From the NCBI GenBank assembly GCA_011052985.1, contig DRHY01000020.1:1-33713 (forward strand): a DNA stretch of 33,713 bases, in the 5' to 3' direction. Positions within the stretch are counted from its first letter, which is position 1; each line of letters starts with the position of its first letter. Made by a program: the position numbers and the translations under genes. The DNA is from Methylophaga thalassica. Lineage in GTDB: Bacteria > Pseudomonadota > Gammaproteobacteria > Nitrosococcales > Methylophagaceae. A model generated the notes under the pieces. That model was not told the origin of the DNA, searched no databases, and saw nothing but the letters and a program-made list of their open reading frames with translations. Of this stretch, positions 1,189-21,882 are shown one piece after another.

Positions 1189-4100
1189 TAACCTTGCTCC
1201 CCCATACGCTGCCAAACTATTTTCGAAAACCACTTAAAGCCAGACGTCATTTGATATCCATCGCTCACCAAACAACCTGGTAGAAACAGGATTGAAGCAT
1301 TTTCAATTTTTACCGGCTCCAACATTTCAGAAAAGCCCGATAAGGAACAATCTTCACCAGTCAATAGGTTCGCGATAACCAAAATGGCATTTTCACCACG
1401 GATTTGTCGGATCTTTTCCAGCTTCTTAATTAATCCCAAAGGCGCAAATTCAGGACGTTTACCAGAAGCAAGCCATTGCTCAAAGCCTTCATCCGACTGC
1501 TCCAGAGCAGCTATAGACCAAAATTTAGCATCAACAAAAACATCCGCGTTTGCTATCTCAAAATCATATAATTCAAACAACTCATGGTTGTAGACGTCTT
1601 GTTTAGTGGCTAGCTGCTTGTCACTCAGCAGTGCGCGAATACCTTCCTCACCAATACGCCCTTGTAAAATTCGCTGAATCACAACGGGATGAAATGCAAA
1701 TTGCTCTTCAATGTCGTTGGCAAACGGCTGAAACGACGTTCGAAAACCTTTACGATTAAACCAATCCGAAATAGCAGGTTGCCGATTAACAACCTCATAA
1801 AGCGTCTGTGGGTTATATTTGATCAATCCCGCTGCACGCTTTTCAAAGAACTGCCAACTTTTTGGGTCGTACCATATTTCACCAGTAACCTTTGTTTCCT
1901 TGGGCCGTTCAAAGCACGCCCAACGACACAAAGGCTCAGTAATGCCAAACGTATTGTTATGCGGCATCCATTGGAGATCATGCTGCAATACAGCGCGGCC
2001 TAGTTCATGCCAAAGTCCTGAAATATCTTCGATACAACCCTTACCTTGTCGTGCATCTCGGATAGCGGAAACTAACTTGTTATCAATAATATCTACCGCA
2101 GCAGAGCCATCTTGGGATCGCGTTTTCAACAGGGTAAGAAAGTTGGAAACCGATGCATCTTCGGAATGAGTAAGATCATCAATCAGCTGATTATTAAGGT
2201 TTGAAACCCAATTTCGGTTGTTAGTACAAACGGTTAATTGGCCGTAGTTGCGAAGATGGCCTGCTAAATCATCGCTTAAATGAATGGCGACATGGGGCAC
2301 ATACGTCCAAGCACGTTCAATACGACCAACTTGCTGCTGCACGTCAGCGGCAAGATTCTTAACGTAGTCATTTGTCGCTTTATAGAGCTTGTTTAGCTCC
2401 TGGATTTTAGCGACTGAGTTATTCATTAACGGCATAATAAATTGCCGCTGCTGCTTACGTGAAAACTCTGAACGCCTGACTAATTTTTCTAAGTTTCTGA
2501 GCTGAAAGCCAGCATGAGACATTTCGTCATCATCGTCATTGCTATCCCATGGTGAAAAGTAAAAGTGCTTACTTTCAATAATAAACAGCGACGTCAGATC
2601 CATCTGCCCTTGAGAGTTAGGCAAGGAGTAATCCAAATTAATGCCATTGGTAGCGGATGCAGTTTGTGTCATTACCACCACGGTACGGCCAGAGTCGAAC
2701 GCCGCTTGATATGCGTGCTCAAATCCTTCTCGCTTTTGTGCTTCAGCATTGAGCAAGCAAATCATCATGGGCTTACCATTGACAGCCAAAGGAATAAACA
2801 CATCATCAAAAGAAGACAATACGCCAGTGGTTAAACGCTCCATTTCAAGCCAATCCGCGCTCATCCTACTGTTTTCAGCGGTATCACTTATCAACCATTT
2901 CCGAAGGTATTTGACTGAGTTAACAAAAGCCAGGTGACCTTTATGTTGTGACTCATTCGCTGCCAAATGTAGAACGTGCAGTAATTTAAATAACACAGAC
3001 TGCCGGTATTCATACTTGTAATCTGAGTGCTCAGCCTCAAAAAATGCAGCGTTCAAATGCAGTTTTGCTTCCTGAAAAACTGGCGCATTGATAGCATCAT
3101 CAAAGTCGTGGATCGTGGTTTTCAGTGTCGAGCGACGCTTTTCAGATTTTTCTTTAACCAACGATCGGATCACTGCCATTTGCAGCTGCTTATCCTCGTC
3201 AGTTTGTAAATACGGAATTGGCTTCTTAAACCAATCTTCGGGGCGCTGCTCAAAGCTATCGCCCAAAAAACTCTCGGTACAGTATGGGTTGCGAGCCTGA
3301 GCCACGTAACGCAAAGCACTTTCAATCCAACGTATATCGAAATGACCAATCCCTCTTTCGATATAAGAGGTTGCGGATAGTGCAAAAACGAGGTTTCGAC
3401 TCGATAACGAAACCATTAACCCTTCAGGCGTTGTCGGCAATAGTGCGCGTTTAATCTTGATCCTCAGCGGGTCAATATCCGCTTCGGCTTCATCCGTGGT
3501 TAACAGCCAAGTTGTTAGGCCAAACATATTCGTCTGAGTATTGGGTAATCGATTTGATTTACTCAGCGCTTCTAACTCAGGCAAGCTAGTGCGAGGCAAG
3601 GAGAACAGCGATAAGCTGGGTAACGCTGTGCTGTAGTAGGATGGTCGATAGTCATTCGCAGGATCAAACAGCAATCGGTTTAGCCGAACGAGATACTCAT
3701 AGGCTTCGGACTCATCGGTTGCGAACTGCGACAATAGCAAACTGAAGCGTCTGATATATTTCTCCATCACACGCAAAAAATCACCGACATCAACTGATGC
3801 TTCATCGCTTTGCCCATAACTTTTCACTTCAAAGCCGTGAGGTTTTTGCTGTAATTGCAAAGGCTCACTGGTAACTAAATGATCTGAGCGAAACAGATAT
3901 TTCTTTTCGAACGGCACACCGGATTCATACTGCTTTAAAGGGATTACCAGCGCCCTAGACTGATTGAGATCGACACCTTTGCTGGTCAAATCCTCCTCTA
4001 GCTCCGCAATAAGCTGTTTCAGCTCACTGTAAAGCTCAGGTATAGGCTGTGCAGTAACAAACTGCATTCGCGCTAAAAGACGCTTGCCCCCTTCAAGTAA

Positions 4101-5069
4101 TTGACCAATACACTCAGGCGGCTCTTGCACCATTTGAGACTGGGCAAGTAACGTCTGTAGAATGTCCGCTTGGTAATCAAACTCGTCAACAAATACTACT
4201 TTTCCGGCCAGTTGGCCGCTCGACATTCTGACTTTCTGTTTACCGTCGTAAAAGGAAGCGAACAGCTTCTGCGTCGTTAACACCAGCAAATGTTGCTTAT
4301 CATCGTGCCAGGCAATCGCCGGGAAAATTCGACGCACCCATTTATTTTCTCTATATAAACGAAGCTTTTCTTTTGCTTGCGCTGTGAGTTCATGCGTCTT
4401 GCCATGGTGCTTACTGGCATACTTCACGGCCTTCTCTAAGGACGACATGCACCCAAGTAGTGTGCGCTCGACAAAGCCACACAGTTTTCTTAGTTCCTGC
4501 TCTTCTCGTTCGAGTAAGACGCCCATCGAATCAGGATTTTTCTTTTTGTACTCAACATTACGGGCAATGGCAGCAACGTTGTGGCAAGCACGAACGAGAG
4601 CCTCTTTATCAGCATTAGAACGAAACACTCCTAAACCATGGATGTCCTCAATGGCCTTATAAGGATCGGGCAAGTCAGACTTTTGAACGCCTTGTTCGTG
4701 TGGCAGTGCCCTTTGAGAAACCGCACTAACAACAGTTTCATCCTGAGCATAAAGGATACTAACGAGCAGTGGATTACCTGAGCTGTCTTTTGCACTTGTG
4801 GCACTTTCATAAATGTCATGCAGGATGTTCCAGCGATGGGTGACCAATATGGCCTGCAACCCTTTGGATTTTATAAACTCAAGGCTTGCTGGAATTTTCC
4901 CGTCTGGACTACGATAAAGCGAACTACTTTTGCCCCCGCCTGTTGGGCCTTGTAACTGACAAAAGCCAGCAATAGCATTTTCGCTCTTTGCATTCACCGA
5001 TAGGGCAAGCGCCTGTTCAATCGTATGCGCAATGATTTGATTATAAGAAGTCGGTATTGGCTGACTCAT
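1188..5069 (-). CDS. ddmD: DdmD-like SF2 helicase fused to PD-(D/E)xK nuclease
   Basis: This 1293-residue protein has a Walker A loop (GPTGGGKS, residues 41-48), an unusual Walker B box DEFD (295-298), and a motif VI QQVGRIER (912-919) with the arginine finger, so it has an SF2-type helicase core. Near the C-terminus, VFVDAKFW places D1180 and K1182 as a DxK nuclease motif, with D1169 a likely upstream acidic ligand; this is the PD-(D/E)xK signature. Helicase at the N-terminus, nuclease at the C-terminus, a length near 1200-1300 residues, and an Argonaute-like protein directly downstream all fit DdmD, the plasmid-degrading partner of DdmE. I see no four-cysteine iron-sulfur cluster between motifs Ia and II, which argues against a DinG/XPD helicase of the pPIWI-RE type. 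It lies 96 bp after the type III restriction subunit, on the same strand. The motifs are seen; the DdmD identity is family-level inference. Confidence 0.68.
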   Translation of the reverse strand: MSQPIPTSYNQIIAHTIEQALALSVNAKSENAIAGFCQLQGPTGGGKSSSLYRSPDGKIPASLEFIKSKGLQAILVTHRWNILHDIYESATSAKDSSGNPLLVSILYAQDETVVSAVSQRALPHEQGVQKSDLPDPYKAIEDIHGLGVFRSNADKEALVRACHNVAAIARNVEYKKKNPDSMGVLLEREEQELRKLCGFVERTLLGCMSSLEKAVKYASKHHGKTHELTAQAKEKLRLYRENKWVRRIFPAIAWHDDKQHLLVLTTQKLFASFYDGKQKVRMSSGQLAGKVVFVDEFDYQADILQTLLAQSQMVQEPPECIGQLLEGGKRLLARMQFVTAQPIPELYSELKQLIAELEEDLTSKGVDLNQSRALVIPLKQYESGVPFEKKYLFRSDHLVTSEPLQLQQKPHGFEVKSYGQSDEASVDVGDFLRVMEKYIRRFSLLLSQFATDESEAYEYLVRLNRLLFDPANDYRPSYYSTALPSLSLFSLPRTSLPELEALSKSNRLPNTQTNMFGLTTWLLTTDEAEADIDPLRIKIKRALLPTTPEGLMVSLSSRNLVFALSATSYIERGIGHFDIRWIESALRYVAQARNPYCTESFLGDSFEQRPEDWFKKPIPYLQTDEDKQLQMAVIRSLVKEKSEKRRSTLKTTIHDFDDAINAPVFQEAKLHLNAAFFEAEHSDYKYEYRQSVLFKLLHVLHLAANESQHKGHLAFVNSVKYLRKWLISDTAENSRMSADWLEMERLTTGVLSSFDDVFIPLAVNGKPMMICLLNAEAQKREGFEHAYQAAFDSGRTVVVMTQTASATNGINLDYSLPNSQGQMDLTSLFIIESKHFYFSPWDSNDDDDEMSHAGFQLRNLEKLVRRSEFSRKQQRQFIMPLMNNSVAKIQELNKLYKATNDYVKNLAADVQQQVGRIERAWTYVPHVAIHLSDDLAGHLRNYGQLTVCTNNRNWVSNLNNQLIDDLTHSEDASVSNFLTLLKTRSQDGSAAVDIIDNKLVSAIRDARQGKGCIEDISGLWHELGRAVLQHDLQWMPHNNTFGITEPLCRWACFERPKETKVTGEIWYDPKSWQFFEKRAAGLIKYNPQTLYEVVNRQPAISDWFNRKGFRTSFQPFANDIEEQFAFHPVVIQRILQGRIGEEGIRALLSDKQLATKQDVYNHELFELYDFEIANADVFVDAKFWSIAALEQSDEGFEQWLASGKRPEFAPLGLIKKLEKIRQIRGENAILVIANLLTGEDCSLSGFSEMLEPVKIENASILFLPGCLVSDGYQMTSGFKWFSKIVWQRMGEQG

Positions 5070-5104
5070 CTAAATCCTCGTTAACTTGATATTCCTTTTG
5101 AGTT

Positions 5105-5128
5105 TCGCCCCTCTTTTAGAAGGGGCGA
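5105..5128 (-). other. Intergenic hairpin between res and ddmD
   Basis: TCGCCCCT (5105-5112) and AGGGGCGA (5121-5128) form a perfect 8-bp GC-rich stem with an 8-nt loop in the 96-bp gap between the type III restriction gene and the ddmD-like gene. Neither strand has a run of T after the stem, so it is not a convincing intrinsic terminator. It could attenuate read-through, mark an RNA processing site, or be a scar of joining two cassettes. Confidence 0.45.
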
Positions 5129-5165
5129 CAAGGTTGGAGACAACACAACACCAACAAATGACTCA

Positions 5166-7817
5166 TTAATTCAATTCAGGCACAATCTCTTGTGACCAAC
5201 TGTCTTCCATAAGCATTTTGAACGACATACCACCCGACGCTGCTTCCAACGTAAGTTCGCCAGCATCTACCGCCGTCTTGACGTGCTCAGTTAATAGCTC
5301 AAACAATCGGCGTTTGTACTCAGTATCATCGTTTCCTTTTAAATGCTCACCCTTGGTTTCCAGTACAGAGAAGCGGTAACTGCCAGAGTTTGGCTGTTCG
5401 ACGCACACCAACAAGTCAGGGTAAACCTTTTGTTTTTGCCAGCCTTGCAGGCTGTATTCACGTTGATTTACTGCAATACGATGCCACCAATACACAGACT
5501 CTTGCTTATCCAAATACCAAGCTGTGTCGCGCTCTAAATTGTTCAGCCCATTTTGATAGACCTTTTCGAACAAGCTTTTTTCGAGTTCAGATCCATCCTT
5601 GCGGCGAAGCACCTGCTCATGCTCACTGACATTAACCTCTAGGGTTTGCGCCAGTTCCCAATTTAGCTTCTTGTTATCTGAAGCGAGTAGACGTAGGGAA
5701 ATATCACCCTTGTCCAACTTAGATCTGAAGATTTGCTCCGATAATTGCGCGACCTGTTGTTTAACGTCGCGCTTCATCTCTTTGAGTAGTTCAAGGCGGT
5801 TAGTAAACAAAGCCTCCTCAGAAACGCCATTACCACGCAAGATGTCTAACGTGTGCGTTAATACCCGCATGGCTTGCCATGGATTTGGAATAACATCGGT
5901 GAGCTGCCTTACCATAAACGAGATATCCAGGCCTGCATTCGGGTCAAACTCGATGTTCTCGTGAACCGGATCGGCCAAGTCCAATTCGCCTTGGTTATCC
6001 TTTGACATTTTGTAGTCGATACGGGCAATCGTGCGCTGTAACTTGTCGTCCACTAGCTGGAAGTTATCAGCATTCAAATAAGACAGCGATTCCCAATCTA
6101 GGTCACCCAGCACATCCCGTTCATAGTCAAACAAACGGTAGCCATCTTTGTACCCTGCATCACGGTGTAAAACCCGAGGCAAGAATATTTTCGGTAGGTT
6201 ACGAAAACGCTCTCTACGCAATAAGGTTTCTTTGCTCACTACCGCGGCGGGTTTATTGGCTTCTGAGGCTTTAACCTGATTCGCCACATCCCCCATACCT
6301 TCTTCTTCTAAACCTTGCTTAACACCGGCGACGGCTTCCATCACATCCTGATCAAAGGTGTAGACATAACACTCATCTAAACTTGGTTTTTGCGTCAATC
6401 GCGCATGTGGTTGACGGAGTACCCGGCCAATCATTTGGGTGATTGCCGTTTTTGCGGTCATTTTAGACAACACGGTTAACACATAAGCAAAGGGGCAATC
6501 CCAACCTTCACGTAGCGCATCCTTTGTGATGATGTATTTAACAGGGCACATTTCGCTGAGCAAATCATCATCACCCAACTCGTCTTTGTCAGACGTTTTC
6601 AGGCGAATTTCATTTTCATTTACGCCCAGTTTTTCTATCAAATACTCACGGGCGTCTTCCGCATGCACAAAGGCTGAATCTCGTTGGTCTTTACCTGTGC
6701 GCTCAACTCGGATCAGCATGATGGGCCGAATATAGCGACCGGTTTCGTTTTGAAGCTGCCCGGCATCCTGTTCAAGCTCTGCCAGTTTAGCGTGCGCAAG
6801 CGACAAGGTATGCTTCCACTCACTTTTGTCTTCGTTGATTAAGTTGATGGGTAACTTAATCATTTGCTCATCTTTCAACGCTTGCCCAGACACGTTCACC
6901 AGTACATTTGAGTGATGCTTGCCGTTTGCGTTAGGTGTGGCCGAGAGCTCAAGAATAAACTTAGGGTTAAAGCCACACAGGGTTTCTCTTGCGGTTTCGC
7001 TATAGGCTTTATGCCCCTCATCCACAATAATCACTGGGCGAACCATGCGTAACACATTGCCTAAGCTTTGTTTAACTGACACTGAGCCTGGGGCTATGCC
7101 TTCTTGCCAACCGTAATCGGATAGATCGTTACAATCTAGATTGCGAATACTGCTCAATAGCGCCTCATTGGCTGTGGTGTCATCTTCAATCGGGAAGAAA
7201 GTGGTAAATCGCCCGCTATCGCGGAACATGCGCAAGGTTTCTTTGGATTGACGCGCACTGGATTGCAGCATCAACAGCATAACGCAGAGGTTTTCGTCGG
7301 TATCCCGCTTGGTAAATGCATCGTTCTTTTCGAGCATTTTTACCCGCCCACCCGAAGCACGTTCAAGCATTTGCCGATACGGATGTTCACGATTAGCTAA
7401 CTGTTTCCATGTTTGCTTGTAAATGGCATCCGAAGGCACCACCCAGAGCACCATACCTGTCTGTTGCGTAAACAAATCCGTTTGCAGACGCTCGACCGCA
7501 GCAACGCCAAGTAAGGTTTTACCACCACCCGTCGGTACTTTCAGGCACACGTTAGGGATTGGCCGCTCTAAGCCGTCAAATCTTGTGACATAAGGCGCTG
7601 GCACCAAGTGGCCGCTTTTGTCTTTAAGTAGGTCAATACGGCGCTCCTGTACCAGAGCTTCCCACGTGTCTTTGGCGTAATCGGTTAAGCGGGCCTCTTT
7701 GCCTTTCATTTTCTGAAAAGCAACAAAGTCTTCCGCTTCTTCCTTGGTGTCAGCCAGCTTTTTCAGGTAATAGTCCAGCTTATCCAGCACACCATTTTGG
7801 TAGTCTTTTAACTCCAT
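5166..7817 (-). CDS. res: Type III restriction enzyme Res subunit
   Basis: This is the 883-residue ATP-dependent endonuclease subunit of a type III restriction-modification system; it translocates or signals along DNA and cuts unmodified DNA together with Mod. Visible motifs are the Walker A loop VPTGGGKT (about 94-101), DEGH (266-269), LSATPN (motif III), QMIGRVLRQP (motif VI), and a C-terminal nuclease with D801 of YPDLL and E820/K822 of LETKG, a complete PD-ExK site. The frame is open further upstream, but ATG 7817-7815 is chosen: it follows a GGGGGCG ribosome site, gives the usual N-terminus MELKDYQNGV, and sits 1 nt after the mod stop. The spacing implies coupled translation with mod. 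Nothing appears broken, so it is predicted active. Confidence 0.93.
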   Translation of the reverse strand: MELKDYQNGVLDKLDYYLKKLADTKEEAEDFVAFQKMKGKEARLTDYAKDTWEALVQERRIDLLKDKSGHLVPAPYVTRFDGLERPIPNVCLKVPTGGGKTLLGVAAVERLQTDLFTQQTGMVLWVVPSDAIYKQTWKQLANREHPYRQMLERASGGRVKMLEKNDAFTKRDTDENLCVMLLMLQSSARQSKETLRMFRDSGRFTTFFPIEDDTTANEALLSSIRNLDCNDLSDYGWQEGIAPGSVSVKQSLGNVLRMVRPVIIVDEGHKAYSETARETLCGFNPKFILELSATPNANGKHHSNVLVNVSGQALKDEQMIKLPINLINEDKSEWKHTLSLAHAKLAELEQDAGQLQNETGRYIRPIMLIRVERTGKDQRDSAFVHAEDAREYLIEKLGVNENEIRLKTSDKDELGDDDLLSEMCPVKYIITKDALREGWDCPFAYVLTVLSKMTAKTAITQMIGRVLRQPHARLTQKPSLDECYVYTFDQDVMEAVAGVKQGLEEEGMGDVANQVKASEANKPAAVVSKETLLRRERFRNLPKIFLPRVLHRDAGYKDGYRLFDYERDVLGDLDWESLSYLNADNFQLVDDKLQRTIARIDYKMSKDNQGELDLADPVHENIEFDPNAGLDISFMVRQLTDVIPNPWQAMRVLTHTLDILRGNGVSEEALFTNRLELLKEMKRDVKQQVAQLSEQIFRSKLDKGDISLRLLASDNKKLNWELAQTLEVNVSEHEQVLRRKDGSELEKSLFEKVYQNGLNNLERDTAWYLDKQESVYWWHRIAVNQREYSLQGWQKQKVYPDLLVCVEQPNSGSYRFSVLETKGEHLKGNDDTEYKRRLFELLTEHVKTAVDAGELTLEAASGGMSFKMLMEDSWSQEIVPELN

Positions 7818-7818
7818 G

Positions 7819-9645
7819 TTACGCCCCCATAATGCGATGGATGGCGTAAGGTAACTGGCAAAACTCAATGCGTTTTTCAGTTAAGTCTTTCTGGCTCATA
7901 AACTTCGCCACAGCAAAGACAATGGTACGCTTTTTCGTAGCATTGTTTTTCGCTATAACCTCGACTTTGTCAGCGTTTAATGCCGCTTCATTCGAGCGCA
8001 GCCACTCGCTATCTGGGCGATAGAACAAATGAATACGGAATAAGTCTGTTTCGCCGATAAAACCATCGGCAGAGGCTTTAGCGACTGTTTCTAACGACTG
8101 ACCAGTGGCGGTATAAAACACATAACGTGCGAGCGCGTCGAACGACGGCATGGCATCGCCAGTAAGTAAGCTTTCAATTTGAATCGGTTCACCTAAGGTG
8201 CAATAGGTAAAACTGCCACTAATGCCTGGGGCAAACTCATCCACTTTGCGCTCACCGGTGACAGTCAGCACTCCATCTTTGAGCTCTTTTTTGATTTTGT
8301 CGAAATCGTTGCTGTGTTTTGCTTCAACTTTGGCTATTTTTTCAAGCAACTCAGCGTGTTTTTTCTCGAAAACCGACCAAGTGATTTTTTCAGAAAGCAG
8401 TTCTTGCTTTTGATTGCCTGTAAAGGGGTAGCCATTGATAACACGGCGAACACGCTCTGCTGTCACCTCATCAGCATAATCTTCACATTCGATCAGAATA
8501 AATTTACGATTTCCTTCATCACTCTTATTAGCCTCCAAAACTGCGTGGGCAGTCGTACCTGAACCAGCGAATGAGTCGAGGATGATTGATTCTGGATCAG
8601 TGGCTATTTCGAGGATTCTCTTCAACAATGTTACAGGTTTAGGTGTGAAAAACTCGACACTGTCATTGCCCATGATATTTCGAAGCGTTTTCTTAGCTTC
8701 ATCCGTATGGCTTGCAAAATCATGTGGCCACCACGTACTTGGTACAGTGCCACCACCACCTTTTAGAGCATGTTTATATCTTTTAAAGGCGGGAGCACCT
8801 TTGCCGTCTTTTCCCCAGTAAACTAGATCATTTTGAATATTTTCTTGATGACGTTCTTTAGAATATCGCCAAACTGCATTCTTCTTAGGCCAAATTTCCT
8901 GTCCAGTATTTGGATTAACTACTGGATAGTAAAGATTTGGTCGCTCTTCCGCAGTTTTGTTGCACGTGTAATCACTAACACGAAAAATACCTTGCTCATC
9001 TTCATTGCGATAATTTTTATCATTACCCTCTGTTCGCTCAAGAAGATTACGTTCGAAGCTCTCAGATTTTCGATACACCAAAACATGATCATGCATTGCT
9101 GAAAATCCCTTAGCATCATTCGACGTTGCATACTTCTTTTGCCAAGCGATGTGACCATAGAATGATTCTTCTTTTTGAAAGATTTCATCGAGTATCATTC
9201 GTAGACGATGTTGCTCATTGTCATCAATAGTTACGAATAGCACACCATCGTCTGCTAGCAATTCGTATAACAAAATCAGCCTCGGCCACATCATGCAAAG
9301 CCATTTGTCATGACGTTCCAAATCTTCTTTATCAACAGGATTGGCTGACTTTTTCAGCCACTCCTGCATCAGTGGCGAGCGAACGTTGTCGTTATAACAC
9401 CAACCTTCATTACCTGTGTTATACGGCGGGTCGATAAAAATGCAGTCTACTTTACCGGCATGAGTCGGCAGTAACGCCTTGAGGGCCTCAAGGTTGTCGC
9501 CATGGATGATGAGGTTATCATCCAATGATGCCGTATTGCCTTCCTGCGGTAACGATTTATCCGCAACCACTTTTAATTCGCGAAACGGCACACTCAGATG
9601 GTGTGAATATACAAACTGCTTACCTTTAAAATCCAACGTTGGCAT
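7819..9645 (-). CDS. mod: Type III DNA methyltransferase Mod subunit
   Basis: This 608-residue beta-class amino-methyltransferase has the catalytic motif IDPPYNTGN (DPPY at 72-75) before the AdoMet-binding motif SFAGSGTT (359-364), the circular order typical of type III Mod proteins and their M.EcoP-like relatives. Mod recognises an asymmetric site and methylates adenine on one strand, and also gives Res its specificity. The region between the two motifs (about 110-340) should hold target recognition. The start at 9645 gives MPTLDFKGKQFVYSHH, a normal beginning for these proteins. The res start codon follows the stop after one base. I see no simple-sequence repeat tract in the gene that would suggest phase variation, unlike many pathogen mod genes. 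Confidence 0.94.
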   Translation of the reverse strand: MPTLDFKGKQFVYSHHLSVPFRELKVVADKSLPQEGNTASLDDNLIIHGDNLEALKALLPTHAGKVDCIFIDPPYNTGNEGWCYNDNVRSPLMQEWLKKSANPVDKEDLERHDKWLCMMWPRLILLYELLADDGVLFVTIDDNEQHRLRMILDEIFQKEESFYGHIAWQKKYATSNDAKGFSAMHDHVLVYRKSESFERNLLERTEGNDKNYRNEDEQGIFRVSDYTCNKTAEERPNLYYPVVNPNTGQEIWPKKNAVWRYSKERHQENIQNDLVYWGKDGKGAPAFKRYKHALKGGGGTVPSTWWPHDFASHTDEAKKTLRNIMGNDSVEFFTPKPVTLLKRILEIATDPESIILDSFAGSGTTAHAVLEANKSDEGNRKFILIECEDYADEVTAERVRRVINGYPFTGNQKQELLSEKITWSVFEKKHAELLEKIAKVEAKHSNDFDKIKKELKDGVLTVTGERKVDEFAPGISGSFTYCTLGEPIQIESLLTGDAMPSFDALARYVFYTATGQSLETVAKASADGFIGETDLFRIHLFYRPDSEWLRSNEAALNADKVEVIAKNNATKKRTIVFAVAKFMSQKDLTEKRIEFCQLPYAIHRIMGA

Positions 9646-9725
9646 CGGTGTTCCTTAAATTCTTATTTAATTCTGATGATTAATCTTTAGTCATAAAAAG
9701 CGGTTGTCTGGGTTGTGCTCATCAT

Positions 9726-10679
9726 CTAAGTGACATAACCAGGCGCAATTGCGAGGTTTTGAACCCCATATAGCGCGGCACGATTGTTTAACGCAAGCTG
9801 ACATTGGCTGGTTGATAAACACGCGGTCTCGGAACAATCGACGTTCCAAAGCCTGAGCAAATACCCCGCAGTTGCAGCTCTAATCTCAACCTTCATCACG
9901 TGCTCCGTCATGCCATAGTCCAGCTCTATCGCTTCGCTGTGCTCTATGCGTGGGTGTGGCACTAACTCCAGTTCTACAAATCGGTTCCACTGCCGGTCTT
10001 GGGTTTCGAGCTCCGTTTCAGACAAAGTGGAATCTTCAAGCACAACCGCTGCTTTAATTCGGGTCAGCACAAAGTCACGGAACTCATTATGCTTGCGGTC
10101 AAAACCACGAACGTGCCAACGTAGGCCATTGTCCACCAGTGTATGCGGTACAATTTCACGTGTGGTTTCACCACTCGATAACGACACATAGGTGATACGC
10201 AAGGCTTTGCCTTTGTGTATTGCCTCGGTGACTTTCGCCACTATCGATAGATTCGGTTTGTTAAGGTGATAAGGCGCTTCACAAGCAAGGGGTGGTTTTA
10301 CCTTTCCAGTAAAGCCATCGCCGTACCCTTGGCTAATGGTTGCCAGTGTTCGAACAACGTCATAGTCGAACAAGGGTTCAAATGCTTCACCACGTTTATG
10401 CAACTTGAGCTTTTGGTCATACTCAATGTTGCTTGGTGCAAGCTCTCGGTACATTGTGAAGTCTTTCGTTGCTTGTGCAGCGGCTATGCTGAAGCGATCA
10501 ACTAAATCCGCCCGCACCGCTTCGCCCTTAAACAATAAGGTGAAATCGATGTGGGCAATGCGATCCCTGGTTGCTTGTGGCAACTGCGCTATCTGCGAAA
10601 GCCTATCTGGCTTTCCTTTCGCGCCTTCTTGAGCGAGTGAACTCGCTGCTACCGTTTGTTTCAGACCATCATTTGTCAT
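9726..10679 (-). CDS. WYL-domain transcriptional regulator, BrxR/CapW type
   Basis: This is a 317-residue DNA-binding regulator. Residues about 25-100 look like the winged helix of BrxR-like proteins (DRIAHIDFTLLF, then DLVDRFSIAAAQATKDF and YRELAPSNIEYD). The centre has a WYL fold (RITYVSLSSGETTREIVPHTLV, RWHVRGFDRKHNEFRDFVL), followed by a C-terminal dimerisation-like domain. BrxR/CapW proteins repress defence operons and are thought to respond to a nucleic-acid or nucleotide ligand through the WYL domain. It is the first gene of the defence block, 80 bp upstream of mod on the same strand, so it probably controls the block. Several inverted repeats upstream (10811-10884) are operator candidates. 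The family call is strong; the regulated targets are inferred. Confidence 0.88.
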   Translation of the reverse strand: MTNDGLKQTVAASSLAQEGAKGKPDRLSQIAQLPQATRDRIAHIDFTLLFKGEAVRADLVDRFSIAAAQATKDFTMYRELAPSNIEYDQKLKLHKRGEAFEPLFDYDVVRTLATISQGYGDGFTGKVKPPLACEAPYHLNKPNLSIVAKVTEAIHKGKALRITYVSLSSGETTREIVPHTLVDNGLRWHVRGFDRKHNEFRDFVLTRIKAAVVLEDSTLSETELETQDRQWNRFVELELVPHPRIEHSEAIELDYGMTEHVMKVEIRAATAGYLLRLWNVDCSETACLSTSQCQLALNNRAALYGVQNLAIAPGYVT

Positions 10680-12928: not shown

Positions 12929-13378
12929 ATGAGTGTCTCGCTGATAGGCCGTAGCGGCGCACTTGCCTTCATCAAAGCCAAGCGCCTTCGTATCCCATTG
13001 TTCATGGAACGTGTTTCTGCTGGTTTTCCCTCACCAGCGCAGGATTATGTTGAGCAAACGCTCGACCTTAACGAGCTGTGCATCAAGCGACCGGCTGCAA
13101 CGTTCTTTGTACGTGTTGAAGGTGATTCAATGATTGATGCCGGGATTCACCCAGATGATATTTTGGTGGTTGATCGCTCTGTCCAAGCCGAACACGGTGA
13201 CATTGTCATCGCGGGTATCCATGGAGAACTCACGGTAAAGGAGCTTCAACTAAGGCCGTGCGTCATGCTGATCCCAAGAAACCGGGCGTATGAACCCATT
13301 CATATTCCCGAAGGGACAGAGCTAGAGATATTTGGTGTGGTCATCAGTGTGGTGCGAAACATGCGCCGTAAGTCGTGA
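12929..13378 (+). CDS. umuD: UmuD-like polymerase V accessory protein (RumA homologue)
   Basis: This 149-residue S24-family self-cleaving protein has a cleavage site at Ala31-Gly32 ([10 protein letters not shown]), the catalytic serine S67 in [10 protein letters not shown] and the lysine K104 in ELTVKEL. RecA filaments trigger removal of the N-terminal arm, giving UmuD', which joins UmuC to form translesion polymerase V. The start is preceded by CGAGG and lies just behind the LexA box. The umuC ATG is 8 bp after the stop, so the pair is an operon. In R391/SXT elements these genes are called rumA and rumB; both look intact here, whereas in SXT itself rumB is interrupted. Confidence 0.95.
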
Positions 13379-13385
13379 CTATCCC

Positions 13386-14654
13386 ATGCCTGTATTTGCC
13401 TTGGTGGACTGCAACAACTTTTACGCCAGTTGTGAGAAGCTGTTTCGTCCTGATTTAAAAGATACGCCGGTTGTGGTGCTGTCCAACAATGACGGCTGCG
13501 TGGTTGCACGGTCGCGTGAAGCTAAGTTACTCGGTATTAAAATGGGCGTACCCGTCTTTCAAATCAAATCTGAAATGCAGCGCCATGGCATTTTGGCATT
13601 CTCGTCTAACTATGCGCTGTATGCAGATTTAAGCAGTCGAGTGATGCGCACTTTGGAGGAGATGGCACCACGAGTAGAGGTTTACTCCATTGACGAAGCG
13701 TTTTTGGACTTAACCGGTATTGAGTCTGCCCTATCCCTTGTCGAGTTCGGACAACAAGTGCGAGAGCGCATAGGCCACTGGATTGGGATCACCGTCTGTG
13801 TAGGCATTGCACCGACTAAAACACTCGCCAAGCTGGCTAACCATGCCGCCAAGAAATATCCTGCCACTCAGGGGGTTGTAGACCTGACCAATCTAGATCG
13901 GCAACGTCGATTGCTCGCATTAGTTCCGGTTGATGATGTTTGGGGCGTTGGTAGACGACTTTCTAAGCGTTTAAATGCGTTAGGTATCACCACAGCCTTA
14001 GATCTAGCCAATGCCTCACCTAGAGCCATCAGAGACCAGTTTTCGGTGGTTTTAGAGAGAACCGTCAGAGAGCTCAATGGTGAGTCGTGCATTGAACTTG
14101 AAGAGATCCCGCCAATTAAGAAACAAATCGTCTGTAGCCGTTCATTTGGCGTAAAAGTGACGCACTTTGAATTGTTACGTGAAGCCGTATGCGAATACGC
14201 AACCCGTGCCACTGAGAAGCTTCGCAAAGAACAGCAGCAAGCCAAAGTGCTGACCGTGTTTATACGAACCAGCCCCTTTAAGGACAACGAGCCGCAGTAC
14301 AGCAACTCTGCATCGGGTGAGTTGCTGATCCCCAGTTGCGATACGCGGGATTTTATCGAGCTGGCCAATCACTTACTCAAGCGGATTTGGAAGGATGGTT
14401 TTCGTTATGCCAAAGCGGGCGTCATGCTGTCTGACTTTTACGATCCTGGCATGTTTCAACCAGGACTATTCGATGACGTATCGACCCGCTCTAATAGCCA
14501 GCAGCTGATGTCTGTATTGGACACTATTAATCAAAGCGGTGCCGGAAAGGTTTTCTTTGCTGGACAAGGTACGAAGAAAGATTGGTCAATGAAGCGAGAG
14601 CATTTGTCTCCCGCTTACACAACACGCTGGGACCAGTTACCGCGAGTGAAGTAG
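13386..14654 (+). CDS. umuC: UmuC-like translesion DNA polymerase V catalytic subunit (RumB homologue)
   Basis: This 422-residue Y-family polymerase is the same length as E. coli UmuC. The N-terminus MPVFALVDCNNFYASCE carries catalytic D8, and YSIDEAFLD carries D103 and E104. The helix-hairpin-helix VDDVWGVGRRLSKRL follows at about 175-190, then the little-finger region. The frame is open upstream to 13332, but ATG 13386 gives the conserved N-terminus. It copies past lesions at the price of mutation when UmuD' is available. The gene is uninterrupted, so this element keeps its rumB insertion site empty. Confidence 0.96.
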   Translation: MPVFALVDCNNFYASCEKLFRPDLKDTPVVVLSNNDGCVVARSREAKLLGIKMGVPVFQIKSEMQRHGILAFSSNYALYADLSSRVMRTLEEMAPRVEVYSIDEAFLDLTGIESALSLVEFGQQVRERIGHWIGITVCVGIAPTKTLAKLANHAAKKYPATQGVVDLTNLDRQRRLLALVPVDDVWGVGRRLSKRLNALGITTALDLANASPRAIRDQFSVVLERTVRELNGESCIELEEIPPIKKQIVCSRSFGVKVTHFELLREAVCEYATRATEKLRKEQQQAKVLTVFIRTSPFKDNEPQYSNSASGELLIPSCDTRDFIELANHLLKRIWKDGFRYAKAGVMLSDFYDPGMFQPGLFDDVSTRSNSQQLMSVLDTINQSGAGKVFFAGQGTKKDWSMKREHLSPAYTTRWDQLPRVK

Positions 14655-15108: not shown

Positions 15109-15572
15109 TTAACCCCAAAAGCCAAAACCACTATCCGTTTGGCTTTTGGATCGAAACGCCAAACGTAAAACTGCCGTAACAATCACTGTTTGGCGTCTCG
15201 ATATAAATCAACTCGCGCAATCCCATACCTGACAAGGGATACAGGCCGATTTCACTTGAAAACACCTAAAAAGACGTATCGCCATGAAGATACAAACCGT
15301 TTGGCAAGTTCAGGCCAGAATGCAAACGACGTTTGGCGTCTCGATTTTTTTGGCTAGGTCACCAGCCGCCAAACAGAGCCTATTCTCATACTTTTGCGAA
15401 AATGCAATAGGCAGATAGATGAAAGGATTTGTCACCTTTCTGCCCACCGCCAGTGCACCGAATCCTGATAATGACATTTGAGTGAACCGCCAGAGCACTT
15501 GGAAAAGCCCAAGCGTGACCAGTGCGGTTGATTGAAAACCGTTAGAGCACTTTGAGTGCACAGGAGATAAGT
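15109..15572. other. Probable oriT and srpC partition site: iterated TTTGGC inverted repeats
   Basis: This 464-bp gene-free interval lies between mobI and the ParM-like gene. CCAAAAGCCAAA (15115-15126) and TTTGGCTTTTGG (15138-15149) are perfect 12-bp inverted repeats. GTTTGGCGTCTCGAT occurs twice as a direct repeat (15188-15202, 15331-15345), and the first copy also pairs, with one mismatch, with TCGAAACGCCAAAC (15151-15164). In all, TTTGGC or its complement occurs at 15138, 15158, 15189, 15300, 15332 and 15368. Close to srpM there are further short GCACTT and CTTGG...CCAAG repeats. oriT and the srpC centromere of SXT/R391 elements are known from this interval; which repeat serves which role cannot be told by eye. 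Confidence 0.72.
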
Positions 15573-16547
15573 ATGTTTGTACTAGGCGTAGATATCGGTT
15601 ACTCAAACCTGAAGCTGGCAATTGGCCAATCAGGTAGTGAACCGAAAACCATTATTCTACCTGCGGGTGCCGGTCCTGCGGATCGTATGCCAGAGCGTAT
15701 CGGTGGAGGCGATGATGACACTTGTTTGTATGTATCTGTCGATAATGAGCGCTGGGCCGCAGGTGTTCCTGCTGGACGCCTTCAAGGCTGGGAACGAGAG
15801 CTCCACCCGGAATATCCCACCACAAAAACCTATAGGGCGCTTTTTCATGCCGCCTTGTTAATGGCTGAAACAGAGTCCATCGATTTGGTTGTCACTGGAT
15901 TACCGGTTTCCCAGTTTCATGAACCACAACGTAAGTCTGACCTTGTGAAGCGTTTAAAAGGTGTTCATCAAGTGACGCCTAAGCGCAGCATCACCGTTCA
16001 TGACGTCAAAGTGCTGCCGCAGCCTGCCGGTGCCTATATGGATCTGGTTCAAACAGGTGGTGATTTGGGCTTAATTGAAGAAGGTCGCGTCGTCGTCATA
16101 GACCCCGGCTTCTTTTCTGTTGATTGGGTTGCTCTTGAGGCCGGAGAAATTCGTTACAGCTCTTCAGGAACCAGCCTTCAGGCAATGTCCGTGCTACTGG
16201 AAACCATTGATAAGCTGATTTCAGAAGATCACGGTGCCAAAGTAGGAATGGATCGACTTGAAAAAGCCATGAGAACAGGCGACTTGCAGGTCCTGCTATT
16301 TGGAGAAAAAGTCGATATTTCACCTTATCTGAATGCTGCCATGAAAAAGGTAGCGCCTGTCGCTCTTACAGCCATGCGCCAATCTATGCGCGACGAAAGC
16401 ATTAATGCGGACTTGGTATTGATCGCCGGAGGTGGAGCCTTGGCTTATAAGGAAGCGGCCAAGGAGATTTTTTCACGAAGCAAGATCATCGTGCCGGAAC
16501 AGTCTGTTTTGGCGAACGTCCGAGGCTTCTGGTTTTATGGGGCCTGA
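15573..16547 (+). CDS. srpM: ParM-like actin-family partition ATPase (SrpM type)
   Basis: This 324-residue actin/Hsp70-fold protein has the phosphate-1 loop VDIGYSNLK at its N-terminus, phosphate-2 VIDPGFFSVDW near residue 180, and the adenosine loop IAGGGALAYKEA near the C-terminus. Such proteins polymerise and push plasmid copies apart. In R391, SrpM with SrpR and the srpC site stabilises the excised, replicating form of the ICE. The frame extends 7 codons upstream to a TTG, but ATG 15573 is chosen because AGGAG ends 6 nt before it and the protein then begins right at the first motif. The adaptor gene follows after 2 bp and the integrase after that, suggesting one transcript. Confidence 0.85.
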   Translation: MFVLGVDIGYSNLKLAIGQSGSEPKTIILPAGAGPADRMPERIGGGDDDTCLYVSVDNERWAAGVPAGRLQGWERELHPEYPTTKTYRALFHAALLMAETESIDLVVTGLPVSQFHEPQRKSDLVKRLKGVHQVTPKRSITVHDVKVLPQPAGAYMDLVQTGGDLGLIEEGRVVVIDPGFFSVDWVALEAGEIRYSSSGTSLQAMSVLLETIDKLISEDHGAKVGMDRLEKAMRTGDLQVLLFGEKVDISPYLNAAMKKVAPVALTAMRQSMRDESINADLVLIAGGGALAYKEAAKEIFSRSKIIVPEQSVLANVRGFWFYGA

Positions 16548-16549
16548 TT

Positions 16550-16819
16550 ATGAGAGTTGTCGTCAACATTCCCCCAGGGAGCCACCCTGAACTGCTCAAA
16601 GAATTGGAAAAGACGCCGCCACGAGAACGCGCTGAGCGTCTGCGGATGCTGGCCACCTTTGGGTTAATTCACATGAGCCAACCCAATCTATCCACGGCAT
16701 CTGTACCGGTGGATGGCCATGCTCCAGAAGTTGAAATTACTTCTGTGAGTACAGCGCCAGAACCCAAAGCAGAATCACGTAAACAATCATTAAAATCAAA
16801 ACTAGGGCTGGGCTTATAA
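16550..16819 (+). CDS. srpR: Small partition adaptor protein (SrpR type)
   Basis: This 89-residue protein begins MRVVVNIPPGSHPELLKELE, a beta strand followed by a helix as in ribbon-helix-helix ParR/StbB-like adaptors, then has the helix PRERAERLRMLATFGL. The C-terminal third is low in structure and ends in a basic stretch (SRKQSLKSKLGLGL). It starts 2 bp after the srpM stop, so translation is probably coupled. By position it would bind the srpC repeats and link them to SrpM filaments. The ribbon-helix-helix reading and the name are inferred from short length, N-terminal pattern and synteny. Confidence 0.68.
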   Translation: MRVVVNIPPGSHPELLKELEKTPPRERAERLRMLATFGLIHMSQPNLSTASVPVDGHAPEVEITSVSTAPEPKAESRKQSLKSKLGLGL

Positions 16820-16820
16820 C

Positions 16821-18062
16821 ATGGCGTTATCAGTTAGCTGGCTCGATGCCAGGTTAAATAAAGAAGCAAAAGAAACCGTAGTAAAAGCCGACCGAGATGG
16901 GCTAAGTGCTCGGGTATCGCCCAAGGGCAAAATTGTTTTTCAGTTTCGTTATCGCTTCGATGGCAAGCAACAGCGGGTAGACATAGGTACTTACCCACTA
17001 ATGAAGCTTGCTGAAGCCAGGAATGAGCTGGATAGGTTAAGGGCAGTACTTGATCAGGGCAGAAATCCCAAGCTCTACCTTCAGCAGGAACGGGCCAAGT
17101 ATTCTGCCAACCAAAGCTTCGAATCGATTTTTCGAGACTGGATAGACTCTGCCGGTAAGCAAGGGCTAAAGGAGAAAACGTGGCACTACCAAAAACGAAG
17201 CAGTGAAATATATTTGCTGCCCCGACTTGGCAAGTACCCATTAACTGACATCAATGAATTGTCCTTAAGAAACTGTCTTCGTGAGGTTTCGGAGTCGTCC
17301 CCTTCAAACACAGAACGCCTAGTTTCTGTGCTGCATAAGTTTTATGACTGGCTGATAGATGAACAGATTTTGGAAATTAACGCTGCTGCTGGGATCACAG
17401 CAAAGAAGGTTGGTGGTAAGAAAGGTAAACGAACTCGGGTGCTAAACGATAACGAGATCAGGATACTTTGGCGCTATTTGCACGAGTCAAAAATTACTGA
17501 GAAGAACCGCATCTACATTAAATTGCTTCTGCTATTGGGCGGTCGCAAGGGAGAACTCATTCAAGCTGAAAAGCATCACTTTGACTTGCAATCTGCAATG
17601 TGGACAGTGCCTATAGAGATCCGCAAACAAGGTGAGAAAATTGGAGCGCCAATCATGCGGCCATTGATTAAACCTGCTATAGAGCTGATTGAACTGGCGA
17701 TGCAGATGAGTAAATCAACTTACCTGTTTCCCGCGAACGGACAAGATGAGCTTGCCACAAATGGCTTTGATACCACTATTCCTAACAATGTGAAAATCTG
17801 GGCTCGCAGGTCGCTTGGTATTGAGATGGAACATTGGTCTATGCATGATCTTCGCAGAACGATGCGAACGCGTATGTCGGCCATCACGACGCAAGAAGTT
17901 GCCGAGTTGATGATTGGCCACAGCAAAAAAGGGTTGGATGCTATCTACAACCAATATCAGTACCTGGATGAAATGCGTCATGCTTACGACGTTTGGTATC
18001 AACAACTAGAAACCATCATCGAGCCGACAGGCTTTCCATTCAACTGGCGTTTCGGACAGTAA
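16821..18062 (+). CDS. int: Tyrosine recombinase, SXT-type integrase
   Basis: This 413-residue site-specific recombinase has an N-terminal arm-binding domain (VSPKGKIVFQFRYRFDGKQQ, then IGTYPLMKLAEAR), a core-binding domain (about 100-190), and a catalytic domain with Arg in LGGRKGELI, HDLRR, MIGHSKKG and the nucleophile Tyr in DAIYNQYQY, so the R-H-R-H-Y set is complete. Integrases of this ICE family recombine attP with a site in the 5' end of prfC, which matches the junction found at 18877. The ATG follows the srpR stop after one base, so expression may depend on the upstream genes. It converges on the excisionase. Nothing indicates loss of function. Confidence 0.94.
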   Translation: MALSVSWLDARLNKEAKETVVKADRDGLSARVSPKGKIVFQFRYRFDGKQQRVDIGTYPLMKLAEARNELDRLRAVLDQGRNPKLYLQQERAKYSANQSFESIFRDWIDSAGKQGLKEKTWHYQKRSSEIYLLPRLGKYPLTDINELSLRNCLREVSESSPSNTERLVSVLHKFYDWLIDEQILEINAAAGITAKKVGGKKGKRTRVLNDNEIRILWRYLHESKITEKNRIYIKLLLLLGGRKGELIQAEKHHFDLQSAMWTVPIEIRKQGEKIGAPIMRPLIKPAIELIELAMQMSKSTYLFPANGQDELATNGFDTTIPNNVKIWARRSLGIEMEHWSMHDLRRTMRTRMSAITTQEVAELMIGHSKKGLDAIYNQYQYLDEMRHAYDVWYQQLETIIEPTGFPFNWRFGQ

Positions 18063-18359: not shown

Positions 18360-18813
18360 AGATCAGCCTTATCAAAACACAAATGTTGCTATTAGGTACT
18401 TTTCAGCTCAAACCTATGAATAACAAGGGCTACAAGGCGGCTTGTGTCATGAATAGCAATCAACACGCCTAACGAGAAAAATTTGTACACACTGTTTGTA
18501 CACTCGCAACGATGACACACCAAAAACCACAATGACGAACCCTTTAAATTCATAAGCTTATAAACAAAAAACTAGAGATGATCGCATTTTTTCCGCTTTT
18601 GTAATATCGAAACCAAAGTACCAAAAGCAAGAGGTACTTTCTTCATCAAACCCAGTAACCACAAGGCCTACAGCCAGATTTGTGTCATGAAATTTTCGCC
18701 AAAGGCCTCTAAAACGGAATTTGTACTCAAGTTTGTACACACTTTCCGAGGTTACGCTTGAACATCATTGAAAAGCAAAGAAACGAGAAAAAGACAAAAA
18801 GCCTTTAAATTCA
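18360..18813. repeat. Imperfect tandem duplication next to attL (candidate Int/Xis arm sites)
   Basis: Two related blocks are offset by about 238 bp. Block one includes CAAGGGCTAC plus TTGTGTCATGAA (18424-18453) and AATTTGTAC (18480-18488). Block two has CAAGGCCTAC plus TTGTGTCATGAA (18662-18691) and AATTTGTAC (18718-18726). Each block has two close copies of TTTGTAC, one or both extended to TTTGTACAC. CCTTTAAATTCA follows each block (18541-18552 and 18802-18813). No gene is convincing here. Paired short repeats between xis and the crossover site are what tyrosine recombinase arm-type sites look like. Confidence 0.65.
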
Positions 18814-18854: not shown

Positions 18855-18941
18855 TTAAGCGTTGAAAGGCTGGGTGGCATCAGGGTGCGAGATGATAGCG
18901 AACGTGCGTCGCGTATTGATTTCGTTTAATAAATTAGACAT
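18855..18941 (-). pseudogene. prfC: prfC 5' remnant (release factor 3), truncated by ICE insertion
   Basis: From ATG 18941-18939 the frame reads MSNLLNEINTRRTFAIISHP then DA. The RRTFAIISHPDA part is the highly conserved start of RF3, the GTPase that recycles RF1/RF2. The next residues should be GKTTITEK, the P-loop, but instead read TQPFNA and a stop, so homology ends at 18876-18878. Only 22 native codons remain. In SXT-type insertions the ICE supplies a substitute 5' end and promoter to the rest of prfC at the other junction, so RF3 is usually still made. rimI and holD nearby on the same strand agree with the E. coli order holD-rimI-yjjG-prfC. Confidence 0.93.
18876..18897. other. attL: ICE-chromosome junction in prfC
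   Basis: The codons for I-I-S-H-P-D-A of prfC lie at 18896-18876 and the coding match ends there. The crossover core must lie in this stretch, because core sequence is shared by host and element and only beyond it does ICE sequence begin. I place the edge at 18877 within a few bases; the exact core needs comparison with attR or an empty prfC. Confidence 0.82.
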
Positions 18942-19196: not shown

Positions 19197-21882
19197 TTGG
19201 GTATGAAAACCAGTAAGCTAAGTATAAGATTATTATGGTATATCACGCCGTTGGTGATTTTGCCGTTACTGTTTTTAGGTGGTTTTACTCTCACCAACGT
19301 AACCAGCTCTACGCAAAAGCAAGCTGAGCTTATTGTGAGTCGCTTTGTTGAGCAGCAACAGCAAAAAATGTTCAACTACATTGATTCGTTCCACTCAACC
19401 ACAAAATTGCTTTCAACCTCTCCGGTACTCAGTGACTTTTTAGCCGATGACTTGCGCGACAACGGTAATTACACTCGCAGGTTAGGCGCGCTAATGGATG
19501 TATTTGCCAGCTATTCAGAAAGCTTACCCAGATCAGCGAGTTTATGGATCTGTTCAAGTTCATATTCACTAATATATTGACCGCGTTTATCGTAGTCTGA
19601 ACTAAATAATATTTTGCCGTTATTGGTTAGTAATAAATTCAGTGTGTTGTTATAGGGGGCTTCTAAAATACTGGAATTTAAAATCGATGGTTCAACATGC
19701 ACCACAATAAAGCCAAGTTGTTGCGGGCGCTTGAGGTAGTAATCAGCACTGTAAATACGTTGAATAAAATACAAGCTGGTGGTGCCATCTTGCTTTTGCA
19801 CCATAAATTGCTGCTGGCGTAAGTTACTTTGCAATACTTGCGAAAAAAACGGGTAACTGGTTGGGGCAGTATTTAAATTACTGGAGTAATAGGCATCACT
19901 TTGACCGTCAGGTGAAATCAAATTCACGCTAATAATATCTGGGTAAGCTTTCAACCATAGAATTATCAAGTATCGACAAAGTCGAGCGGATGATTTACGC
20001 CATCCAAATGAGCGGTGGTTATTATTATGTTTCTACCATCCCCAAAGCTTTGCTGTATCAATCGGGCAAAGCGATCAGCTTAATTACCGCGTTAATCGTG
20101 ATCATTTCAGTGATCACTCTGCCGATGCTGATTTTTATTGTGGTACGTAATTTACTGCTTAACCCAATCGAGTTACTTGGCGCCGCCAGTCATCGGGTTG
20201 GTGATGGTGATTTATCAGTGTATTTACCCGCTCACAATAACGATGAGGTGGGTGTGTTATTTAACGACTTTAATCACATGGTGAATCAAATTCGCCATTA
20301 TCAAGACGAACTTGAAGAATACAAGCATCACCTTGAAGATAAAGTTGAAAGCCGTACTAAAGCGCTTGAAACCATGAACAGTCAGCTAGAGGTTGCCATT
20401 GCCCAAGCAGAGCAAGCCAACCAATTAAAAAGCCGCTTTTTAGCCAATATGAGTCATGAAATTCGTACGCCATTGACCGCTATTATGGGTTTTACCGAGC
20501 AACTGTTGCACAGTAATAAAACCAGCGGTGATGCTTTGCACCTAAGCACTATATTACGCAATTCAAAGCACCTGCTTGAGCTAATTAATAATATTTTAGA
20601 CTTATCTAAAATCGAAGCCGAAAAGCTCGCTGTTGAAAAAGAACCGCTTGATATTGTGCAATTAGTTCATGATATAGATTCAATTATTCGGCCTTTATCG
20701 CAAGAGAAAAAGCTCAATTGTAATATCAACTTTCACTTACCATTGCCGCGAATAATTAATAGCGATAGCACTCGTTTAAAACAAATTCTCATCAATATTG
20801 CCAGTAATGCGGTGAAGTTTACCGAGCAAGGCTTGATCACCTTAGATATTACTTATGATAGTGATTCACAACTCATTGAATTTGCAATTCAAGATAGCGG
20901 TATTGGCATGTCGGAACGTGAAGTTGAGCGAGTATTTAAACCATTTGAACAAGCTGATGCAACCACCACACGACGCTTTGGCGGTACGGGATTAGGGTTA
21001 TGTATTTCTAAAAACTTAGCGCAATTGCTCGGTGGTGATGTTTATGTACAAAGTACACCCGGTAAAGGTAGCTGTTTTAGCGTACAAATTGCCTGTAACT
21101 TAGCGACAGACAGCGAACATTTAACCCCGATGCTAACTGAGTTGAGCCAACTCAGTGCAGAGAAAGATTTACAGCTTTCATTTGCACAAAACAGCTTTGA
21201 TGCCAATATTTTAGTCGCTGAAGATAACCCAGATAATCAAGTGTTGATCACGTTACTCTTACAAACATGGGGGCTTGAACCTGATATAGCTAACAATGGT
21301 GCTGAGGCCGTTGAAATGGCACTGGTAAACGACTATCAACTGATCATTATGGATATGCAAATGCCGGTGATGGGAGGCTTAGAAGCCACTCAGATGCTAC
21401 GTCACGCAGCCTACGCTGGCCCAATCATCGCCCTGACTGCTAACGTGATGAAACATGATGTAAATACCTATTTACAAGCCGGTTGTGATGAGGCACTTGC
21501 TAAACCTATCGACAAAGATGCCTTAGAAAGTGTACTGGTTAGCTATTTAAATATTGAAAAAGACACCCAAAATAAATGGGAAAACTTGCTCAATAGTGAA
21601 AAATTTCAACAAATCAACAACGACTACCGTTCAAAATTACCTGATTATTTAACTCAAGTAACGCAATTACACAGTGCCAATGAATGGCAACAACTAAGGG
21701 CACTTGCACATAGCTTAAAAGGCAGTGCGGGATGTTTTGGCTTTAGTAATATTCACCATGCTGCTGCGGCACTTGAGGATAACTTACGTGGTCGCGATCA
21801 GAGCCGACGTGATTATTTAGCACTGAGTTTAATTGAGTCGATTAAATACACCTTACAGCAAGAACCGCTAACCGAATTATAA
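19197..21882 (+). pseudogene. Hybrid sensor histidine kinase gene interrupted by an internal inversion
   Basis: The N-terminal part (19197-19580, TTG start 9 nt after GGAGG; ATG 19203 is an alternative) has a membrane span (LLWYITPLVILPLLFLGG) and a helical periplasmic start, then runs into antisense sequence. The matching extracellular sensor domain is at 19511-19969 on the minus strand (DIISVNLISPDGQSDAYYSS). The C-terminal part (counted from 19990) has a second membrane span (29-53), HAMP, coiled coil, HisKA (NMSHEIRTP, H156), HATPase, receiver (phospho-Asp D455 in IIMDMQMP) and Hpt (H574 in ALAHSLKGSAG). Flipping the middle joins sensor to C-terminal part exactly in frame, but the left joint is one base out. 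In the present arrangement no full sensor kinase can be made; a cytoplasmic fragment might be. Confidence 0.88.
19518..19952. other. Inverted DNA segment with 16-bp terminal inverted repeats
   Basis: GAAAGCTTACCCAGAT (19518-19533) and its exact reverse complement (19937-19952) bound a 403-bp segment. That segment codes for the sensor domain of the kinase on the wrong strand. After inversion the right joint reads DLGKLS then TIELSSIDKVERMIY without a break, showing that this end was once continuous. The left joint reads YSESLPRYY and stop, off by one base; one A fewer in the GAAAGC run would give YSEAYPDII. No invertase gene is nearby. Confidence 0.85.

Follow-up and report, generated by a model that had tools for sequence, protein, structure and literature searches.

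The locus analyzed here raises the question of how a stretch of 435 bp (19518-19952) came to lie reversed inside a hybrid histidine kinase gene, with perfect 16-bp inverted repeats at both of its edges. A recombinase-operated switch, a mutation that happened once and an artefact of amplification or assembly would each have a different meaning for the gene. The window, i.e. the whole stretch of 33,713 nucleotides that was analyzed, is contig C20 of assembly G000 (positions 1-33713), and the features of interest are listed in Table 1. Programmed invertons and their mutational look-alikes can be separated starting from one assembly, by setting its arms, orientation and number of bases against those of relatives, and this is the approach followed here.

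Table 1. Features of the split kinase gene and of the adjoining integrative element (positions in the window)
Feature	Position	Strand	Remarks
Tyrosine integrase of the ICE	16821-18062	+	No evidence of action on the inverted repeat
prfC 5' remnant at the ICE end	18877-18941	-	Matches L026 from 5360; prfC of L026 is 3841-5424, - strand
5' kinase fragment	19203-19580	+	ATG, first transmembrane helix, N-terminal part of dCache; 125 aa
Left arm of the inverted repeat	19518-19533	+	GAAAGCTTACCCAGAT; 16 bp, perfect; one base longer than in 38 distinct relatives
Inverted core	19534-19936	-	About residues 110-245 of the kinase, mid-dCache; open on the - strand
Right arm of the inverted repeat	19937-19952	- (arm sequence reads on the - strand)	ATCTGGGTAAGCTTTC; 16 bp, perfect
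3' kinase fragment	19990-21882	+	End of dCache, second transmembrane helix, HAMP, HisKA, HATPase_c, receiver and Hpt (Pfam); 630 aa

A segment of the kinase gene is reversed between perfect repeats

Comparison of the window with 27 Pseudoalteromonas loci (Blast) showed that the strand of homology changes from + to - and back to +, the switches being located at the repeats, whose arms are complementary in 16 of 16 positions and enclose a spacer of 403 nt. The inversion as an event is judged to stand well above chance, since homology defines it. The first-pass annotation, which had pointed to a reversed piece with 16-bp perfect inverted repeats, was therefore borne out in this respect, as was its description of what flipping would do: in the computed flip the reading frame is continuous across the right joint and shifted by one base at the left joint, so that a crossover between the arms, identical as they now are, would give a frame-shifted gene and not restore the full kinase frame. 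The offset at the left joint amounts to one additional base, which is absent from every one of the 38 distinct relatives that were aligned. What had been termed an inverted sensor domain is indeed inverted, yet it is not the whole sensor, since the flipped segment covers about residues 106-250 of ~890, the middle of a dCache domain (dCache_1 spans 37-276 in L026).

The window matches Pseudoalteromonas, with ~88-91% DNA identity over 6 kb, and the nearest relative in the collections searched is ~91% identical at the DNA level. The contig comes from a metagenome-type bin of another genus (2.86 Mb, 353 contigs). No homologue of the sensor piece was found among the genus-mates of the bin, and a DNA search in that genus returned generic histidine-kinase motifs only. 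In addition, contig C54 of the bin carries a second guaB, 67% identical to guaB of the window and similar to that of the bin's genus-mates. Because of the match to Pseudoalteromonas, the second guaB and the lack of a sensor-piece homologue among the genus-mates, the contig is regarded as Pseudoalteromonas DNA misbinned into a MAG of another genus. Such misbinning shows that the sample was mixed, and the bin genome thereby offers no evidence on invertases.

Orientation of the segment and state of the arms in relatives

A search of 108 Pseudoalteromonas genomes gave paired hits in native orientation only. When orientation was assigned by piece-wise comparison, 56 loci (a count that includes duplicates) were native and none was inverted; L050 was too divergent to be scored. 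The open frame in relatives has ~885-915 codons including the leader, where the fetched stretch was long enough. In L050, from the divergent Pseudoalteromonas sp. T1lg75, the open frame (5650-7551) has 634 codons vs ~900 in its sisters, and this homologue is possibly another broken copy or the result of a sequence error.

The loci collapse to 38 distinct sequences, which were used for the alignment of the arms. Over 14 positions the arms of the window match in all 14, those of the five nearest relatives in 9, 9, 10, 10 and 11, and those of the 38 relatives in 2 to 11. An imperfect repeat in the nearest relatives (9-11/14) is thus perfect in the derived sequence. The arms in relatives encode E-A-Y-P-D (left) and D-L-G-K-L-S (right), and their complementarity is a by-product of the coding sequence. 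Pairs of arms taken from the same genome match no better than pairs taken from different genomes (mean 7.66 vs 7.52, permutation p 0.07), so that the alignment does not point to the arms being selected as a recombination site. In the left arm, the extra A and the A of CCCAGAT are states that none of the five nearest relatives has, and both are right-arm states; CCA in the left arm is also present in more distant relatives, which weakens the second of them as evidence.

These data bear directly on the possibility of a reversible intragenic inverton, in which a recombinase would flip the segment and turn the kinase on and off, or give alternative products. Known invertons of the intragenic (Chanin et al., 2024, cited in PMC11868660) and gene-intersecting (PMC11892184) kinds are like the window in having the segment inside a gene and short inverted repeats; perfect 16-bp arms fit the general form of 10-40-nt repeats (PMC11892184). 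A tyrosine recombinase is encoded on the adjoining ICE, and an open frame has been kept in the inverted core, as an inverton would lead one to expect. In contrast to these invertons, only one orientation is found among the Pseudoalteromonas loci scored here, the arms are poor in relatives and show no covariation, so that the repeat is not conserved as a recombination site, a base has been gained where a conservative reversible exchange would gain none, and flipping back is not frame-restoring. Nor is there an invertase gene beside the segment, the integrase of the ICE being the only recombinase near. Further copies of the 16-mer were found neither in the window, the ICE end included (up to 3 mismatches), nor in the rest of the bin or in 4 related genomes (up to 1 mismatch). 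Altogether, we consider a reversible inverton very improbable, and the recombination switch suggested in the first-pass annotation is not supported. A conserved inverton in the genus was rejected, given the native orientation and the poorly matched arms in relatives, and so was a multi-site invertase system using the same 16-mer, of which no further copies were found in the bin or the 4 relatives (up to 1 mismatch). It is more improbable still that the locus is a newly arisen reversible switch, in which the homogenised chance repeat would keep flipping and some cells of the population would have a kinase uncoupled from its sensor.

A one-off template-switching event as the probable origin

The reading we favor, and hold to be probable, is that a conserved dCache hybrid histidine kinase gene underwent a recent, one-off, non-programmed inversion when replication switched templates at an inverted repeat that was imperfect and present by chance. 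According to this model, two coding stretches (...S-E-A-Y-P-D-I... and ...D-L-G-K-L-S...) would have been near-complementary by chance. In the course of replication or repair, the nascent strand would have detached from its template at the left arm and annealed to the right arm of the other strand, with synthesis then running back through the 403-nt spacer until the strand returned at the other arm. The outcome would be an inverted spacer and arms identical over 16 bp, with one base added at the left joint if the arms had paired one base out of register; alternatively, this extra base could come from an independent indel, before or after the inversion, or be an erroneous base. The event presumably took place in a living cell.

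When the ancestor is modelled as lacking the extra base, a path of two switches reproduces all 500 observed bases (with 60 or with 16 equivalent paths, depending on the left arm assumed), which demonstrates sufficiency only, the ancestor model being the window with the base removed. Two strand switches hence explain the inverted spacer in full, and no conservative inversion yields the observed sequence, the lengths differing by one; since a base has been gained, conservative inversion by a recombinase cannot explain it. Together with the native orientation in relatives, the gained base and the two-switch path support the other option contemplated in the first-pass annotation, a recent one-off inversion.

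Template-switch mutations between short inverted repeats (PMC8604942) share with this locus arms that are imperfect in relatives and longer and perfect in the derived sequence, an inverted spacer, a non-conservative change in an arm and a location in coding DNA. They prefer short spacers, those of the published spacer inversions being 2-5 bp long, and the proteins concerned are retained with substitutions (PMC8604942); here the spacer has 403 nt and the gene is broken. Spacer length is the main weakness of the template-switch reading.

The same inverted arrangement would result from a reciprocal crossover between the arms, by RecA-independent or homologous recombination, followed by conversion of one mismatch or indel, and the right arm could then have supplied the extra base through heteroduplex repair. 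However, this route needs an additional conversion step for the gained base, and the ~9-14 bp of homology fall below the length that RecA usually needs, so that we find it quite improbable.

If the inversion is real, template switching would have given a clear bacterial case of spacer inversion with homogenisation of the arms at 403 nt, far beyond the published yeast cases considered here, in a lineage with relatives close enough for the event to be reconstructed. The loss of the kinase gene would in itself be of local interest only.

The split kinase and the age of the break

The intact homologues, and the pieces in the window taken separately, carry dCache, HAMP, HisKA, HATPase_c, receiver and Hpt, which is the content of dCache hybrid histidine kinases (dCache-HAMP-HisKA-HATPase-REC-Hpt), with the difference that the copy in the window is split. 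The dCache_1 domain was found in 19 of 19 members; in L026 its score, 36.1, is under the Pfam gathering score of 45, and a fold search agrees with the assignment, the solved folds nearest to the intact sensor being the dCache sensors PDB 6mni and 3lie (on a model of modest mean pLDDT, 62). BarA and TorS gave the best NCBIfam matches, yet with scores far under the cut-offs, and neither identity was assigned. Downstream of the kinase lie rimI-like, guaA, guaB and xseA genes.

The 5' fragment, homologous to residues 1-105 of intact relatives, is native to ~19517 and then reads into the inverted segment as far as a TGA at 19578-19580. The 3' fragment starts at an internal ATG, upstream of which no ribosome-binding site is clearly recognisable, and a scan for promoters and terminators at the kinase gene gave none, fewer than in shuffled sequences. 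The present allele is most likely a null allele, made up of a membrane stub and a 3' frame devoid of the first transmembrane helix and most of the sensor; from these frames we infer loss of kinase function, while constitutive activity of the 3' fragment is conceivable at most. The earlier proposal that a full transmembrane kinase is replaced by separate fragments holds for the present reading frames; nothing indicates that the fragments are produced or used.

Substitutions in the gene are as constrained as in its neighbours, and an old, decayed pseudogene was rejected on these grounds. The 5' fragment has 0-4 amino-acid differences with respect to the five nearest relatives over 105 codons. 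Private changes, in small counts, were distributed as synonymous/nonsynonymous 1/0 in the 5' part, 4/1 in the inverted core, 17/5 in the kinase part and 13/1 in guaA. Pairwise dN/dS in the inverted core was 0.016-0.043, like that of intact relatives among themselves, and that of the 3' fragment vs relatives was ~0.02-0.04. Since selection does not seem to be relaxed, these substitutions suggest that the break is recent, is limited to a few cells and not fixed, or is artefactual; few nonsynonymous changes would be expected equally if the inverted form were rare in the population or nonexistent.

The lack of signs of relaxed selection would fit with a joint made in vitro, as an amplification chimera, or by assembly of a mixed metagenome, in which case living cells would carry the intact gene. 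That the contig lies in a 353-contig bin with a guaB of its own, hence from a mixed sample, points in the same direction. Chimeras formed in phi29 amplification are mostly inverted, with priming at complementary stretches of 2-21 nt (PMC1855051), and these MDA products are like the window in that the inverted sequence is joined through a short complementarity. They differ from it in being single inverted joints with deletion of the intervening sequence (PMC1855051), while both joints are present here and nothing is missing. Besides, the neighbouring chromosome is collinear with relatives, for ~6 kb to the right of the inversion in the case of L025 and L027. A pure graph error is unlikely, the 16-bp repeat being shorter than the k-mers usual in assemblers. 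Overall we consider an artefact, which the first-pass annotation had also named, unlikely, if still the main alternative to template switching.

The neighbouring integrative element

The element adjoining the kinase ends at ~18877-18896, ~620 bp from the left arm (~640 bp in the first-pass annotation). In the empty site of L026 the junction is placed in the 5' end of prfC, divergent from the kinase. An int gene lies beside the junction, and the int end gives a 96.5% match to ICE records of Proteus mirabilis. By its junction and its int, the element can be assigned to the SXT/R391-type ICEs inserted in prfC, the conjugation core being outside the window. Plasmid records were matched by the ICE only.

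The same ICE end is found ~0.6-0.7 kb from the same kinase in five Pseudoalteromonas genomes (G082, G083, G114, G125 and G145; by its coordinates G082 is L042, P. lipolytica), and in all of them the segment is native. Because these five genomes keep the native orientation, the ICE is best seen as a neighbour that does not explain the flip, and the link between both that had been envisaged fails. An inversion driven by the ICE was rejected for this reason and for the lack of resemblance between the 16-mer and the ICE end (up to 3 mismatches).

As for the content of the ICE, full-length matches identify the subunits of a type III restriction and modification system (5166-7868 and 7819-9645), and a WYL-domain protein is encoded at 9726-10679. 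A further product of 1293 aa (1188-5069) resembles DdmD only weakly and in part, and NCBIfam gave no match for it; the stretch 1188-10679 is likely to represent defence cargo. A umuDC-like (rumAB-like) translesion polymerase pair is encoded at 12929-14654, the second frame overlapping the first, and a ParM/StbA-like actin homologue (15552-16547) adjoins a small gene (16550-16819) and the integrase. The stretch from the integrase to the ICE end contains imperfect 60-nt direct repeats (18394-18453 and 18632-18691), 238 nt apart and with repeated TTTGTACACACT motifs nearby, which are possibly binding sites for the integrase or an excisionase.
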